Below are positions 51,119-63,700 of a stretch of DNA of 64,000 nucleotides, piece after piece (position 1 is the stretch's first letter; each line of letters opens with the position of its first letter). Source of the stretch: Siphlonurus alternatus (taxonomy: Eukaryota; Arthropoda; Insecta; Ephemeroptera; Siphlonuridae); the NCBI GenBank assembly GCA_949825025.1, contig OX463779.1, positions 33,986,203-34,050,202 on the forward strand. Direction: 5' to 3'. The position numbers and the translations under genes were made by a program. The notes below the pieces were generated by a model, which was not told where the DNA came from, did not search any database, and saw only the letters and a program-made list of their open reading frames with translations.

Positions 51119-54044
51119 TCAGAGTTTTTTTTTAGTTTCTGTAGTTGCCGAGACAGGTGTCGCCACTGGTCTGATTGTCTGGTTGAAGAGAAGGTTGGAG
51201 ACGGCAATCACAGGCATGAACAGCTGTAGCGGGTACTCACTGAAGGCAAGACAGGGTGTTTTAGGACACAGAAGGAAATGAATCACGAGAGAAACTTACC
51301 AAGATCCAGTGACAGGCTCTGCCTCGTTTCCACTGATGATAAACAAGGGAAACAGGATAGAGAAGACGCACCCACTGAAACAACAAAATATAAAATACAT
51401 AATATATTCATATAACTATTAAATTTCAAAATCACTTTAATTGAACATTAAGTACCTATGCTAAAGAAACAAATAGTACAAAATGAATGTCCCTAATATC
51501 AAACGTCTATATACAATATTATGATGATTCTACTTTGCCATCTTATTGCTTTTTGTTATTATGAAGATGGAAAGTTTAAAAATCATACAGTACTATCATT
51601 TCGCGTACATTAAGTTTAAATAGCTTGCAAATATATAAAAAATATAATGGTATTAAATATGAAGGTTTAAATTCCATACACAAGCATATTGCATTATTAT
51701 ACAAATATTACAAACAGTTTTGTGCTTGGAAGGCTAAAAAAAAATCATTATACTGCAGTAACAGCTTGTTGCAGAGCAATTTTTGTGATTTTTAATTTTG
51801 AACTGCTCAACATAAATATGTACGAATTTTTGATGTACCTGATTATATAGTTGGTGGGTAGTGCAGTCAAGACAGCTAGAGGCAGACCAAAGCCAACAAA
51901 GTATGGCCATTGGGTCTCAATGAAGGTGAGACGTCGGTGCAGCTCCCAGCCCATGTTGAACCACTTGTACTCAAAGGCATACAGTGAGTACAGCAGACAC
52001 ATGTGCACCTGGTAGAGCAGCTGGCCAAGGGGGGCTATTGGCAGCTTGCTCACCACCATACTCTGTGAAGCATCATGAACATATTTAGCCTAACACAGGT
52101 CTTGTAGTAATGTATAAAATAAAATATTACAGTACTTAGTTTGTTATTCCTAAACTGTACTGTACATATTGTACCTAGCTCATTCTGATCTTCAGTGGAA
52201 AAATTACTACAGTTAAATAAACAATTTGTGTAGTGAATGCTGTTACCTGCACAAGGAAGAGAGCTTGAACGAGGATGCTGAACAGAGTGTCTGCAATGAG
52301 CTTGCTAACACTGGACATCATCAGCGGACGTCCACGACTGTAGCGGTACGCCGAGTCTGCAATGTCCTGCAGATCATACCACATTACAGTATTGTATAAT
52401 TATAGTCATTTAGCTGTTGGGTATAACACGGCTGACAAGCGCAGACCAAGAGAAGTGGGGGAAGGAGAGTTGCTTGGGAACTTCTTTTCTTTTTATTATT
52501 ATCATTGGCATTATGAAGCCAACACCCCAAGAAATTTCAATCTGGATCTGCGCCTGATGGCTTCTAAACAAAAATCAGTAACTTGCCTGGAACCAGAGGC
52601 TGTTGATGAGTTTGCTGAGTAGAAACAGTGGCAGAACCCACACAGCTCCAAAGGTCCAAGACAAAAGAGGTTTGGTCCACTCCCACACCAATTGATCTGT
52701 GCCAAGAATTCGCAGTACAAATCTGATCATAGGTAGCAAGCCATACTCAAAAGCAAGTATGCTGAGCCAGAACACTCCACCATTCAGCAGGCAGCATTGT
52801 ACAGTGCGCTTTAGCACTTTTGGCTCCCTGCAACATTAGAAATAGTGGTTATTATTTTGGGTATTTTAAATGGAAGATAAAAATCTTAATCATAGGCATA
52901 CACCCAAAAAGTTTTCTTCCCTGCACTACAAAAAGATTGTCCCACACTATTATTTTACTGTATGCTCTCTAGATTTCAGTACGTATACTATAAAGAGCCA
53001 AAACTCACTCTTGCTTCTTCTCTTTACTTTCATGTTTTGATGGTGGTCTGGCACGAACAGGAGTTTGAAGAGCCCTCTCCTTAATATTTTTATCAAGATA
53101 AAATAAGATTATGGAACCTCGCAAACTGTCCGTAAAGCCACGGACTATCGCACATCCTATATTCTGAAATCAAAAAGAAAATATTAATACGGGCCTAGTT
53201 CATTTTTTTATATATATATATATATATAAATACTGAACTTCTTACGCAACATCTGAAAATATTAGAAATAAACACACACAAAAAAAAAAAATTATGAACA
53301 TATTAGGTATGAACAGTGCAAACTTAATTGGGATGAACATATTAGGTATGTAACCGCAAAGAGCAGAAGGAATCTTGAGTTTGTAATGAGGAATCTTAAG
53401 GGGGCAGGCAGGACAGTAAGAGAAAAAGCATACAAGTCTCTGATTAGACCAATAATGGAATATGGATGTAACGCATGGGACCCGTATAGAGCAAAAGGGA
53501 AGAAAGAGATGGAAAAGATACAAAGACGAGCAGCAAGAAGGGTCTTAGAAAAGGGGAACTGGAGCTTTATCTGTGATAAAAACAAAATTTATAAGGGAAG
53601 AGAGAGTGTGACTAGAATGATAGAGCAACTGGGATGGGAGGATCTGGAGGAAAGGAGGAAGCAAAGTAGACTGACAGCAATGTATAAAATAACTAGGAAC
53701 CAAAAGGGCTGGGAGGAGCTTATAGCGATCGTACTGAGGAAGGGCGTTATAAAGGTAGGAGGGACCATGATTGGAAGCTGGAGTATAGGAGAAGCAAAAA
53801 TGATGTGGGCAAGTATTCTTTTTTGAGAAGAACGGTGAGGGAGTGGAATTTGTTGGACTCTGGGCTTGTGGATGCTCGGAGTGTTGGTGAGTTCAGGGAG
53901 GGGCTGAGAGAGTCAGCCGCAAGCAAGCGAGCCACCGTGGTGGAATACCCACAATAGCCGCAAGCAGTGGTGTATGTATGTAATGTGTGTACACACTGCT
54001 ATTTAATCTAATCTTAATCAAAAACTTACTTTGATGCTCCCCAT
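51119..54044 (-). CDS. EI24: EI24 / tank, ER membrane autophagy protein
   Basis: Seven coding exons in minus order: 54044-54030, 53163-53009, 52827-52587, 52366-52247, 52062-51839, 51374-51300, 51239-51119. Phases agree and give 316 residues, close to vertebrate EI24. Family-typical stretches are [12 protein letters not shown] (about 68-79), [19 protein letters not shown] followed by DIADSAY (about 119-144), [35 protein letters not shown] and [16 protein letters not shown]. About six hydrophobic segments fit an ER multispanning protein. EI24 (PIG8, fly tank) is a p53-inducible ER protein needed for autophagy. The intron after exon 3 uses a GC donor (CAG/GCAAGT). Intron 1 contains a non-LTR fragment. 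The five-residue first exon is the least certain part. The gene lies head to head with TARBP1. Confidence 0.9.
53294..53350. repeat. 18-bp direct repeat pair
   Basis: ATGAACATATTAGGTATG occurs at 53294-53311 and again at 53333-53350, immediately left of the non-LTR fragment. It could be a small tandem duplication formed at insertion. Confidence 0.7.
53351..53990 (+). mobile_element. 5'-truncated non-LTR retrotransposon fragment (C-terminal RT region)
   Basis: The plus strand encodes the thumb and C-terminal part of a CR1/jockey-like reverse transcriptase: [72 protein letters not shown] frameshift near 53755 moves the ending [14 protein letters not shown] and the final ATVVEYPQ (stop at about 53955) to another frame. 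A GTATGTATGTAATGT tail follows, as in LINEs with microsatellite 3' ends. No polymerase core is present, so the copy is dead. It lies antisense in EI24 intron 1. Confidence 0.85.
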
Positions 54045-54745: not shown

Positions 54746-57700
54746 ATGGATTCATTCTTATTTCCAAAAGAAGTTTTTACTGCTTGTTCTTCGGAAGAAA
54801 AGAATAATATATCCAAATCTTTAGATAGCACAATCAAATCTTTTATACCTTTGCAAGATAACTTGGATAGACTTAAAGATTTGAACAATATATTATCTGT
54901 TAGACAAAATCTTAATGCTAGCCTTGCAGCCAATGAACAATGTGATGAAATTTACAAACTTCTAGCTATTGAATCACTTCTCCTATTAGAAAAGCATGTA
55001 GACAATAACCAAGAAATTTTACAAATTTTAATAAATATTTTTGGAAGCTCTCTACCTATGCTGCATAAAGCAAACTACATTGAAATAATTGCAACAACAA
55101 TATCTAAATGTAAAACGGAGTTATCAAATTTCTTTGATCGCCAATGGCTTGATGGATCTATTATTGAAAATTTCAAACCAAAGACATATTTAGATTTATT
55201 GGAGAATATTCTGTCATCAATACTGCAACATCAAATAAAAGATAAGCAGTTTGACCACTTACATGATGACTCGATGCACACATTACTTTTGTGTCTGTCC
55301 TCGTGCAACATTGATAGTATTAGTTCTCACACAACAATGAGCATACTGCCAAAGTTGATGGACTATGAACACCAGCCACACCTGCTAGAGAAATTGTGGG
55401 AACTTGTTGCGAGTCAAGTGAATGAGAAAGATGGCAAGTTGTTCATGGAAAAAGATGCAGCATTTATGCTCCTCTGCTCATTGATAGAATTTTATCTTCC
55501 AGCAGAAACTTCCACCCAAGAATCCTTTATTCTACAAAAAAATGAATTCTGGAAAATCATTCAATGTGGTATAATTCACAACGACCAAGTTATTAGAAAA
55601 CAATCTAGATATTTGCTGAAACGTGCAATTGATTTTGTTTCAAATAACAAAATATCAATCAAGACAGATTATTTCAACTGGAATAATCAAACCTCATCAC
55701 TAGAAGATTGGGACCAATTCTTTCTAGTAATTGAAAGCTTAGAAGAAAAACAAGTTCATTTAATTAAACCAATGTTCCCATTAGTAGATAATTTATTTAA
55801 AACCGTAGACATGAACTGGGCTTTGAGTGCCTTATATCAAGTGATCAATCATGACAATAATTTTATTGTAAAATGGGGGATCAACTTCTTTCTACAACTT
55901 ACTCCTACTGAAGATACAAATGCATTTACATTTCAAAATATTCTTCCAGCTTTAAATAATGCAATTATTTATCACAATGACTCTCTCAACCTTTCTGAAA
56001 TTAATATTGGACTTAGAAATTTATTACAAAATATTGCATTAAAAAAAAATGTGAATTTCTTCAAACAACTGCTAAGGTCACTTGCATCAATACCATGGGC
56101 ACCAGTGCCTTTGTACCAAGTTAGTCAAGCCCTTGGAAACTTGCCAAGTTTTCCTGCATGGGACACTGAGGATCTTCTTGTGCTGAAAAAATTTCTAATT
56201 GAAGCCTTAGCATCACACAACATCTTCCTGCGAGCTGCAGCCCAATCAATGTTACTTCGAGGAATGCTTGCTCTTACAAATACTGAAAATCTTGACATGT
56301 CCACTCTTGCTGATGTTCTTGCAACATTCAACAACTCAGAAAGTTTAGCTCGAGGGCATAAAGATTGGGCATTAACAGTTGAATGGCTACAAAACAACAT
56401 TTCCCCTGAAACAGCAGAAAATTTTGTAGTCATGTCAATAAATTATGTTACATCTAATAATGAAAATAGTGAAAGCAATGAAAAAAATGTATTAAACTGT
56501 CACGCAATAGCTAGAACTATCATATTGCTTTGTGATGCTCATCTATTAAAAGAAGAAAATTTCTCATTTTTGATGAGAAAAATGATAACTCAGCTTGATG
56601 GTTGTGAGACGAGACTCTACATGTGTCAACGTGATGTAGATTCAAGTCTAGATCTTCTTACAAACTTACTGGCCGAGTGTGGAACTCAAAAGAATGGAAG
56701 TGACAAAACAAGAGACCTCATTATATCCATTGTGGCTCCAGTTTTATCTGGTATGTTCTCTTACCTCCACACACGCCTCAGTGCACCTCTTCAGCTGCAT
56801 GATTTCCACTCGGTTCAAATCTACACAGCAGTGCTGGCAATGATTGCTAGTAGTTCTCAACTCTTTGCTAGTATTCTTCATCAAGTACCAGCATGTTTAG
56901 AAACGGCAACAGCAATTTTAAACAACAAGAATCTAGAGCTAGCAATGCAGAAATACTTTGCAGCAAAATTTATTGAATGGTGTAGCAACTGCTGCATTAA
57001 CAACAACTTGAGTTCTTCCGACAGGTTTGTTTAAGTTTTACAACATATTTTTAGTAATGTTTAAATATTCTTTCTTTCTTCTTTTTTATTTTTATTTTTT
57101 TTATTTATTCTTTTTGTTACTAAATAATCTTTATCCTCCTCAGCTCTTCTGCACTAAGAAGGCAGCTTGAGGCCCACATTACCAATGCTGTGATTACCGA
57201 ATCTCTCAACAACTCTTGTCCGAGACCTGCAGCCTCGGAGCTGACTCGTGACCTTCAGACGCTCTGGGGTCGCATCACGTCTGGCCAGCTGAAGGCTCTC
57301 TGGTCCACCGTCAATAATCTCCTGCATCTCCCAACCTCGGCACTCCACGAAAGTCTTCCATGTTCTGACGTCATCAGCCAAGCCGTGGAAGGAATTGAAG
57401 TGGGAGGACCAGAAATTCTGCCACCAATCATGGCAGTCCTGACATACTTTTTATATAAAGAACAAGACATTAACTTAGTTAAATCAATACTGAACAAATG
57501 CTATTCTCTTAGCTTTGAATACCGTAAAACTGAATTGTTTTGGCTGGCTATAAAATCTTTTATTAAAATGACTTTCAGTAAACATATGCTTCAAAGAAGT
57601 GATATCGTACAAGAATTGACAAAGGTAGTTACTGTGTATGATTAAATTTAATAATACAAACCCTCATTATTTATGTATTAAATTTATAGCTAATAGCTTA

Positions 57701-60700: not shown

Positions 60701-63700
60701 CTAATTACATACTACTTTGAAACCCCGAACCTTCCGAAACCCTAACTTGAGCGTTTCGCGGGCTCTTCCGGAACGGGGGCGGCCACGGCCTTGCAAATCC
60801 ATCCTGGCATTTGCCTGCGGCTGAGGGAAACGTGGAACCCTCAGCCAGGATGGACGCTACAGCTTTTGTCAATGAACCGGAAGTGCAATGGTCCAAAGCC
60901 AGGGGAACCACATAGTGGAAAAGCGCAATGATTTACCCCTGGGTGGGAAACGTGGTTTTTGTTGAAAATGGTCACCCATCCAACTACTAACCTCGCGCGG
61001 CGTTGCTTGACTTCGGTGATCTGACGAGACCTGGTCAAGCGCACTGCGCTACACCTCCCACGTTTTGTATGTATGCATATTTTGTATGTACTAATACAAT
61101 AAAAACACATACCGTTCATGAAGAATATAACAAACATTTTCAGTGATTAGTTTCATTCTATTAATAATGTGAGCAACGATAATCAAGCAAAACTTCTGAC
61201 TTTTGTTTGTATATCACTTCAGACTATTTTCTCCGAGCTGCCTCGCCTCTCCAATGTCAGCCCTGACGAGTGGATCTCGCCCGGCATGTTCTGCTGTGAC
61301 GACAACTGCCCATTGCCCCTCAGAAACCCAGACGATGTACTGATTGGATGCAAAGTTGCCAGCTGGATCATCAAATCTACAGGTATGGGCAAATCTGTAG
61401 GCTATTTCAATATTACAGTACTGTTTTACATGACATTTATTTATATAAAAATGAACTTTAATCATTTTTGATCATTTTTGTATCATTTTAATGTAAAAAT
61501 GTGCAATTATAATTAAGAAAAGTTTTGCATAGTTAAAAATGTAAATGTAAATTACATTAAATATAGTGATGAGGCAATTTAATAAATTACTGTAGATAGA
61601 ATTTGCATAGAAACTTGGATTGAGATGCAATATTTTAATTTTATTTAATTTGACATGTGTTATTTTGAGCCAGGTGGAGGTCCAGTTCAGGATGAAGAGG
61701 AGGAGAGCTGTGGCTCGATCGTCCAGCGGAAGGTCACCCCTTGGAAGAGCATGTTCCCCGAGCAGGCATCAAGAGAGAGACGACGGGATGGGACCCAAGG
61801 AGGGCTGGTGGTGGTAGCCTCCCTGCTGGACCGACCTCCTAACCTGGGTGGGCTGAGCCGAACCTGCGAGGTTCTGGCAGCCTCGGAGCTTGTCCTGGGC
61901 AACGTCAGGGTCATAGAAGACCCCATGTTCCAGTCCCTCAGCGTCTCAGCAGAGAAATGGATGAACGTGACAGAGGTGTGTTGCACCTAATTATTTTAAT
62001 GCTATGTTTGTATGATACAGTATACAATAAGTTGGATTATCCTTGCACCACTCATATTTATTTGTCTTTTACCTGAAAATACAATCATAATTACAATCTT
62101 TGATGATTTTTTACATCAGCTTTCGTGTTGAACCTTGGCACCACAGTATAAAATCGCGATATTCAGTTCCATAGCAGCATTCACTCTTATATCCATAGAT
62201 CCGAGTTTCGCCTTTTCCAAGGCTCATCAGTATGGCTTGTAAGAGGCTGCTACTGACTGCCGAAGCAGTCAGTTCGCAACTGATGAGAGACGGGAGAGAG
62301 CACCGGCTTTTATTGCCAGCTTGCTTCCCCCACCTCTCACCATGACGTCACTCTGCTTCCCCATTGGTCGTGTTAACAACGGCTTCTAGAACTTTCAAAA
62401 AGTTACTAGAGAGGTCGTGGCACGGACCAACAGAGTAGCAAAGCAGACATTATACTGCATGGATAATTTATAAACAGTATAAATTAATGAGTGAATACAA
62501 AAACGTTCACTCATAGTGATATTTAGATCCATGCAGTATAATGTCTGCTTTGCTACTCTGTTGGTCCGTGCCACGACCTCTCTAGTAACTTTTTGAAAGT
62601 TCTAGAAGCCGTTGTTAACACGACCAATGGGGAAGCAGAGTGACGTCATGGTGAGAGGTGGGGGAAGCAAGCTGGCAATAAAAGCCGGTGCTCTCTCCCG
62701 TCTCTCATCAGTTGCGAACTGACTGCTTCGGCAGTCAGTAGCAGCCTCTTACAAGCCATACTGATGAGCCTTGGAAAAGGCGAAACTCGGGTCTATGGAT
62801 ATAAGAGTGAATGCTGCTATGGAACTGAATATCGCTATTTTATACTGTGGCGCCAAGGTTCAACACGAAAGCTGATGTAAAAAATCAACAATCTTTGATA
62901 TTGTTCCACCCATGTTTGTAAATGCTGTTGATGTTTAGAGACTATTCTGCAAGTTATACATTTCTGTATTTCACAAAAATATTTTTAAAGCTAGTAAATC
63001 ATTCTATACAACTACTGTATACATAAGGTATTGCCTGTGGAACAGGCACAACAAATATAATAAACCAACGTAGCATATGATTTTACCATATTACACTAAC
63101 CATCTGGTGTTGCCTACAGGTTCGACCCCACCAGTTGCCTGCATACCTGGCACACATGAAGCGCCAGGGCTACACTTTAATTGCAGCTGAGCAGACATCC
63201 CGTAGTGTGCCTCTTCAGCACATGCCCTTCCCCAAGCAGACGCTGCTGCTATTAGGGTAGGTGGTTCCCCACTGATATTACTCCAAAAAGTCAGAAGAAT
63301 TTTTAAAAGTATTGACAATTAAGATGGCAAAATGCATGAATACCAATATTCAATTAAAATATACATACTGTAGCTGCTTATTCATACTACCACCATTAAA
63401 TTTTTATTATCAAAATCAAGCCCAGGAGCCATAAAGTTGTTTTTTTGCTAGCATAAATTATATTTTTCTTTGATTCGCTATGCATGGTAAACTTGATGCC
63501 ATCTAAAAAATCTTAAAACTTTCTCCCACCAATCAGATCTTGTGAGACTAATTTGAAAGAAATAAAGACAAATTTGAACTTACTTTTAATAATTAGTTTT
63601 ACATTTTCACCGTCTGTCTGTTTTAGGAATGAGAAGGAGGGCATCCCTGCCGAGCTGCTCCCTCTACTGGATGTGTGTGTGGAAGTACCTCAGCAGGGTG

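Follow-up and report, generated by a model that had tools for sequence, protein, structure and literature searches.

A type I hammerhead motif in an intron of TARBP1 in Siphlonurus alternatus belongs to a mobile element, not to TARBP1 itself. The element is a copy of a dispersed family with a non-coding 554-bp unit, which is arranged in tandem and head to head between short direct repeats, generally carries an extension at one of its two ends, and is nearly identical from unit to unit within an insert. The family is probably non-autonomous, retrozyme-like and mobilised by Penelope-like elements (PLEs), with the hammerhead as the RNA-processing part that would cut multimeric RNA into 554-nt units. 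A retrozyme-like unit and a PLE insertion signature are thereby joined in one genome, in which PLE arrays with open frames of 869 residues are also present, and the question of what mobilises animal retrozymes therefore becomes directly testable. A limited search of the literature found no earlier description of a retrozyme-like family with a PLE insertion signature.

The TARBP1 insert and its hammerhead motif

The features discussed below are collected in Table 1; "the window" denotes the whole 64-kb stretch of DNA that was analysed. An earlier note on this DNA had placed the hammerhead inside TARBP1, in sense orientation, and the intron bears this out, as the TARBP1 frame runs uninterrupted across it; the Pfam TARBP1 domain PF25050 was found in the upstream exon frame (54746-57031). 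A lamprey or other vertebrate source, suggested by the exons, was rejected, as a protein search pointed to insects; among named relatives the mayfly Ephemera danica came nearest, with 46% identity over 69% of the query, and the top hit overall gave 40% over 98%. The insert is 783-784 bp long, starts at 62104 or 62105, ends at 62887, and is made of two 361-bp inverted arms with three differences between them. The CCAAT, TGACGTCA and AATAAAAG words that precede the hammerhead are candidate promoter motifs. Elsewhere in the window, a 5S rRNA-like sequence upstream in TARBP1 (60941-61062, minus strand) scores 41.3 bits, over the Rfam cut-off, and is probably a 5S-derived SINE or pseudogene. An open frame of 184 residues with no Pfam match lies just upstream of TARBP1 (53272-53826, plus strand); to the eye it resembles the terminal part of a LINE-type reverse transcriptase (RT).

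Table 1. Features of the mobile insert and its surroundings (window positions; unit positions refer to the 554-bp unit)
Feature	Position	Strand	Remarks
TARBP1 intron holding the insert	61976..63119	+	1144 bp; exon frame unbroken across the intron
Target-site duplication, left copy	62093..62104	+	ACAATCTTTGAT; 11-12 bp
Whole mobile insert	62104..62887		inverted arms between direct repeats; 62104 may instead belong to the repeat
Left half	62104..62463	-	unit 360 down to 1, no tail (blastn layout)
Second hammerhead, left half	62174..62250	-	antisense to TARBP1; HH9 21.2 bits at 62175-62248
Head-to-head junction	62464..62473		ten bases without blastn assignment to the unit
Right half	62474..62887	+	unit 501-554, then 1-360, no tail (blastn layout)
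Promoter-like words upstream of the hammerhead	62624..62684	+	CCAAT 62624, TGACGTCA 62641, AATAAAAG 62677; mirrored in the left half
Type I hammerhead, extended stem I	62741..62817	+	predicted cut 62793/62794; manual reading and descriptor
Target-site duplication, right copy	62888..62899	+	ACAATCTTTGAT; flanks the insert end

The motif has the make-up of a type I hammerhead, with a CUGANGA/GAA/UH core, three helices and an open stem I. In particular, CUGAUGA starts at 62761 and is followed by a stem II of 5 bp (GCCUU-GGAA-AAGGC) and then by GAA. Stem I is built of three helices in succession (GCAGC/GCUGC, CUCUUA/UAAGAG and CCAUA/UAUGG), whereas stem III has 2 bp (AC-UCGG-GU). Because a C sits at 62793, directly after stem III, the cut is predicted between this base and the next. 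The intact core, the three stem I helices and the cut position had all been claimed in the earlier note, and each was recovered when the sequence was read again. Moreover, a strict type I descriptor run over both strands of the window matched this site only, and at its three stringencies 6, 1 and 1 of the dinucleotide shuffles of the window (n=800) held any match. A looser descriptor gave two matches in the window, the second at 57377 on the minus strand, and found matches in 8 of 300 shuffles. Fold z-scores of the region are -3.0 (68 nt) and -3.9 (90 nt).

An Rfam scan of the window at the gathering threshold did not report a hammerhead. The top hammerhead-clan model by E-value was HH9 (RF02275), one of the amniote intronic hammerheads; it scored 26.0 bits against a cut-off of 52 (E 6.6e-4). 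Taken together, the score below the cut-off and the descriptor result indicate that the motif, as read from the sequence, is a genuine hammerhead of a weak form with a short stem III. The minimum-energy fold of the isolated sense RNA is not the hammerhead; it is a competing structure in which CUGA pairs with UCGG. The antisense copy in the left half is one base off the sense copy, and its second stem III pair is C.A, not C-G.

The earlier note also proposed that TARBP1 pre-mRNA could cleave itself at this motif, in competition with a duplex of the inverted arms. The competing duplex agrees with the predicted structure: in the minimum-energy fold of the insert (-747 kcal/mol), 358 of the 376 pairs are mirror pairs between the arms, and the sense hammerhead lies wholly inside the arm-arm duplex. 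Its antisense is encoded in arm 1 and would be transcribed before it. As the hammerhead is predicted to be buried in this way, effective self-cleavage of TARBP1 pre-mRNA is unlikely, and the proposal that the motif serves to cut this pre-mRNA is not supported for what is one of 124 core matches, placed in an insert bounded by direct repeats. A functional hammerhead that controls the splicing or level of TARBP1 pre-mRNA by cutting it would have parallels in the conserved intronic hammerheads of amniotes, which are retroelement-like and for which a role in mRNA biogenesis is suggested in the accessible part of PMC6155905; the intronic position, the intact core and the sense orientation would suit such a function. 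It is nevertheless highly improbable here, given the number of core matches, the youth of the insert with its direct repeat, and the predicted sequestration; moreover, unlike the amniote motifs, the window motif scores below threshold and sits in a recent multi-copy insert, not at a conserved single site. The TARBP1 copy is a recent, short product of the family and is now a passenger of the intron.

The 554-bp family and its insertion signature

The genome of S. alternatus (456 Mb, 102 contigs) holds 124 hammerhead cores with at most two mismatches (65 + 59), compared with 0 + 0 for a reversed-pattern control; a hammerhead pattern had 0 matches in viral contigs. The arm has at least 45 matches in the genome, with 40 of 238 candidates scored, and recurs every 553-555 bp within arrays; the unit is therefore 554 bp long. 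It is composed of the 360 bp seen in the arm and a further 194 bp, the last 54 of which are retained in the window copy, and up to nearly seven units stand in tandem. The longest frame around the unit, in all six frames, is 78 codons between stops, or 38 if an ATG start is required. A PLE-like ORF beginning at the ATG of the hammerhead was considered and rejected, since this frame stops after 38 codons. Likewise rejected was the idea that insert ends fall on conserved codons of such an ORF, since the PLE ends examined in the same genome lie at the real ORF start, at -1 to +2 and +29 to +40 relative to the ATG. A palindrome (ATGAGTGAA/TTCACTCAT) occupies window positions 62487-62514 (unit 514-541), shortly upstream of unit position 1.

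The structure of inserts was compared at 23 loci, namely the window, the 14 loci with all other listed arm matches, and eight further pairs. The 100 hammerhead places listed, of the 124, form 51 clusters, 28 of which hold a single core; all but one of the 23 loci (L021) fall among these clusters, and one-sided, single-core and distant clusters are under-sampled in the set. The layout is head to head at 20 of the 23 loci and one-sided at three (L018, L020 and L021, the last with flanks that match within a TTA tract). Head-to-head inserts consist of a minus half, a variable junction and a plus half; a half may be shorter than one unit or as long as nearly seven. At one such junction (L060, 334-396, minus strand), a stretch scores as a type III hammerhead with 34.6 bits (cut-off 48.5, E 3e-4), more than the type I form, and an upstream GUC in the unit might be an alternative cut site.

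At 18 of the 20 head-to-head loci, a direct repeat of 9-14 bp, a few bases of which may be the element's own, stands at the outer ends; L009 and L013 have no clear direct repeat and, together with the three one-sided loci, were left out of the 18-locus count. Matched flanks share 12.3 bases on average, compared with 5.5 in 306 mismatched flank pairs, of which three reach 9 bases and none reaches 11; the repeat of 9 at L064 is thus within the control range. The left flanks of the inserts are 82% A+T, compared with 68% for the window. An assembly artefact, or a fold-back DNA transposon with a hammerhead arisen by chance, would also show the long inverted repeat and short spacer of the window copy. 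Either is hardly credible, given the three differences between the arms, the direct repeats outside them, the recurrence at many loci with a variable number of units, and the low chance probability of the hammerhead.

The two ends of an insert differ in a regular manner. Exactly one end carries a tail, an extension of about 30 bp that brings it to unit 384-395, in 17 of the 18 two-ended inserts, and the no-tail end of these lies at unit 358-362 in 14 loci and at 329-347 in three. The exception is the window copy, with a tail at neither end. If each end took its form independently, at the frequency seen, the probability of at least 17 such inserts among 18 would be about 7e-5, for loci that are not a random sample. 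Since the layout and the one-sided tail recur between a single pair of direct repeats, they arose with the insertion, and the one-tail pattern constrains models of PLE insertion.

Comparison with Penelope-like elements and retrozymes

According to the accessible part of PMC3846280, PLEs are marked by head-to-head inverted pLTRs, duplications of 8-10 bp and an optional tail of about 31 bp at one inverted pLTR, and promoter motifs occur in their pLTRs. The PLE protein cuts and extends both strands at AT-rich targets, with two RT start sites that bound the tail and no difference in start site between strands, and it achieves insertion in vitro without a need for hammerhead cleavage (PMC11167929). 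The 554-bp family shares with PLEs the head-to-head and tandem layout, short target-site duplications, AT-rich targets, a hammerhead upstream of the end points and, in all two-ended inserts except the window copy, a one-sided tail within the range of about 30-40 bp (PMC11167929 and the accessible part of PMC3846280). The palindrome of the unit recalls those at the 5' end of rotifer pLTRs, as far as the latter are described in the same part of PMC3846280. In contrast to PLEs, the unit lacks an RT or endonuclease frame. Without the telomerase-like RT and GIY-YIG ORF, the family is therefore at most a non-autonomous relative of PLEs.

PLEs themselves are present in the genome. With a PLE RT sequence as the query, 131 RT matches were found, including tandem arrays with an open frame of 869 residues; a GIY-YIG Pfam search gave two matches. 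Repeats spaced about 2910 bp apart, many with the 869-residue frame, occur at C1:419114-434545 and C9:2379385-2406631, and no hammerhead core was found in the examined copies of these repeats. When the base before the ATG is counted as 0, PLE ends near the ATG lie at 0 (L037 and one side of L033), +2 (L034) and -1 (L047, L049 and L054), and those downstream at +29 (L033), +35 (L026), +37 (L043) and +40 (L044, L049, L050 and L054). One end of each kind is thus present at L033, which belongs to the 869-residue family but is incomplete; its direct repeat measures 12 bases (AATAATATAAAT), compared with 5 and 7 in two cross controls. The C9 copies, if they form a single array, end at +2 and +35, and an (AT)n tract hides any duplication.

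Minimal hammerhead-like cores were read by eye in the PLE families of L043 and L044 (reverse strand), at positions 418 and 347. From these cores it is 87 and 173 bases downstream to the ATG, compared with 126 bases from the core to the no-tail end in the 554-bp unit; the cores recur one period on (2899 and 2746 bp); Rfam gave no hammerhead at these two loci at E<=1. At L056 (C6:2426300-2430400), a partial PLE-like frame of 275 residues is carried by repeats that recur about every 1940 bp and are perhaps a shortened PLE family.

Comparison of the unit by blastn with 34 loci (L023-L056; 32 from the PLE and GIY-YIG queries) gave no match below E 1, and no ORF-bearing PLE with the sequence of the unit was found among them. 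Two of the 100 listed hammerhead places (124 in total) lie within 15 kb of any of the 131 RT matches, both on the opposite strand, and none of those listed is in line with an RT match within that distance. These results weigh against mobilisation by PLEs. They also bear on a different view, in which the arrays are not a separate family but pseudo-LTRs left over from an autonomous, ORF-bearing PLE that has lost its body. In a rotifer, pLTRs do occur solo or, with duplications, on either side of unrelated sequence (accessible part of PMC3846280), and the hammerhead, promoter-like words and end points are placed where a PLE pLTR may have them. However, a unit repeated up to nearly seven times in tandem, with no frame above 78 codons and no ORF-bearing copy among the loci compared, makes this view very unlikely.

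The other relatives to be considered are the animal (non-LTR) retrozymes, which, as far as the available text of PMC7229834 and PMC7761336 goes, are non-coding tandem units with a type I hammerhead and a weak stem III. All these features are found in the 554-bp family. Its unit, however, is longer than the published 150-450 bp; a head-to-head layout and a tail are not mentioned in the available retrozyme descriptions (PMC7229834, PMC7761336); and animal retrozymes seem to be without promoters in the portion of PMC7761336 at hand, whereas promoter-like words occur in the 554-bp unit. In the available passages of PMC7229834, PMC7761336 and PMC8969392, PLEs are named only as likely candidate movers of animal retrozymes. 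The family is built like a retrozyme, and its insertions look like those of a PLE. The lack of an ORF keeps it from being a PLE in the strict sense, and its unit exceeds the size range published for retrozymes.

It could also be an ordinary animal retrozyme, moved by LINE or unknown machinery, whose inverted layout and end asymmetry were produced by later recombination. The tandem non-coding unit, the type I hammerhead with a weak stem III and duplications of more than 4 bp are all known in retrozymes (available text of PMC7229834 and PMC7761336). Later recombination is an unlikely source, however, for a layout and a one-sided tail of about 30 bp whose end points are nearly constant across 17 of 18 inserts, all of them within one pair of direct repeats apiece, and the same end pattern is seen in a PLE copy of this genome (L033).

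A proposed cycle and the uniformity of units

Mobilisation by PLEs can be given a more specific form, which is put forward tentatively: the family may be a retrozyme that uses Penelope machinery, in which a PLE protein reverse-transcribes a 554-nt circle made by the hammerhead lap after lap, priming on both strands of a single staggered cut, with one start at the tail site and one at the no-tail site, leaving head-to-head arrays. If true, this reading would settle what moves animal retrozymes and would account for the one-sided tail of PLEs. In the cycle favoured here for the family, a tandem copy would first be transcribed, perhaps from the unit's own promoter, and hammerheads one unit apart would cut the RNA into 554-nt monomers, which, by analogy with the retrozyme literature, a host ligase may close into circles. 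The RT/endonuclease of a PLE, the putative helper, would then bind the unit RNA and cut AT-rich DNA with a stagger of about 12 bp; cDNA would be primed on both cut strands, starting at unit ~392 (tail) and ~359 (no tail). Each cDNA would cover less than a unit or go round it several times, and the 5' ends of the two would be joined head to head.

Units within an insert are nearly identical. Over about 360 positions, arm copies at the same locus differ by 0.59 on average (71 pairs), compared with 3.69 between loci (1010 pairs), and none of 2000 label shuffles gave a within-locus difference as low as that observed. Opposite halves differ by a mean of 0.76 (34 pairs), with a maximum of 11 at L057. 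Where a variant occurs at only one examined locus, every copy there has it: 9 of 9 at L022, over both halves, 4 of 4 at L011 and, at one site, 5 of 5 at L019; similarly, a base in the stem I loop is common to both window arms and absent from the other 22 examined loci. This uniformity fits a bottleneck of one unit at each round of transposition, such as copying from a circular monomer would produce; gene conversion, or the copying of a linear transcript from an array that was uniform beforehand, would have the same result. At L022, all nine units have a C.A mismatch that breaks stem II, so that some insertions may not require cleavage.
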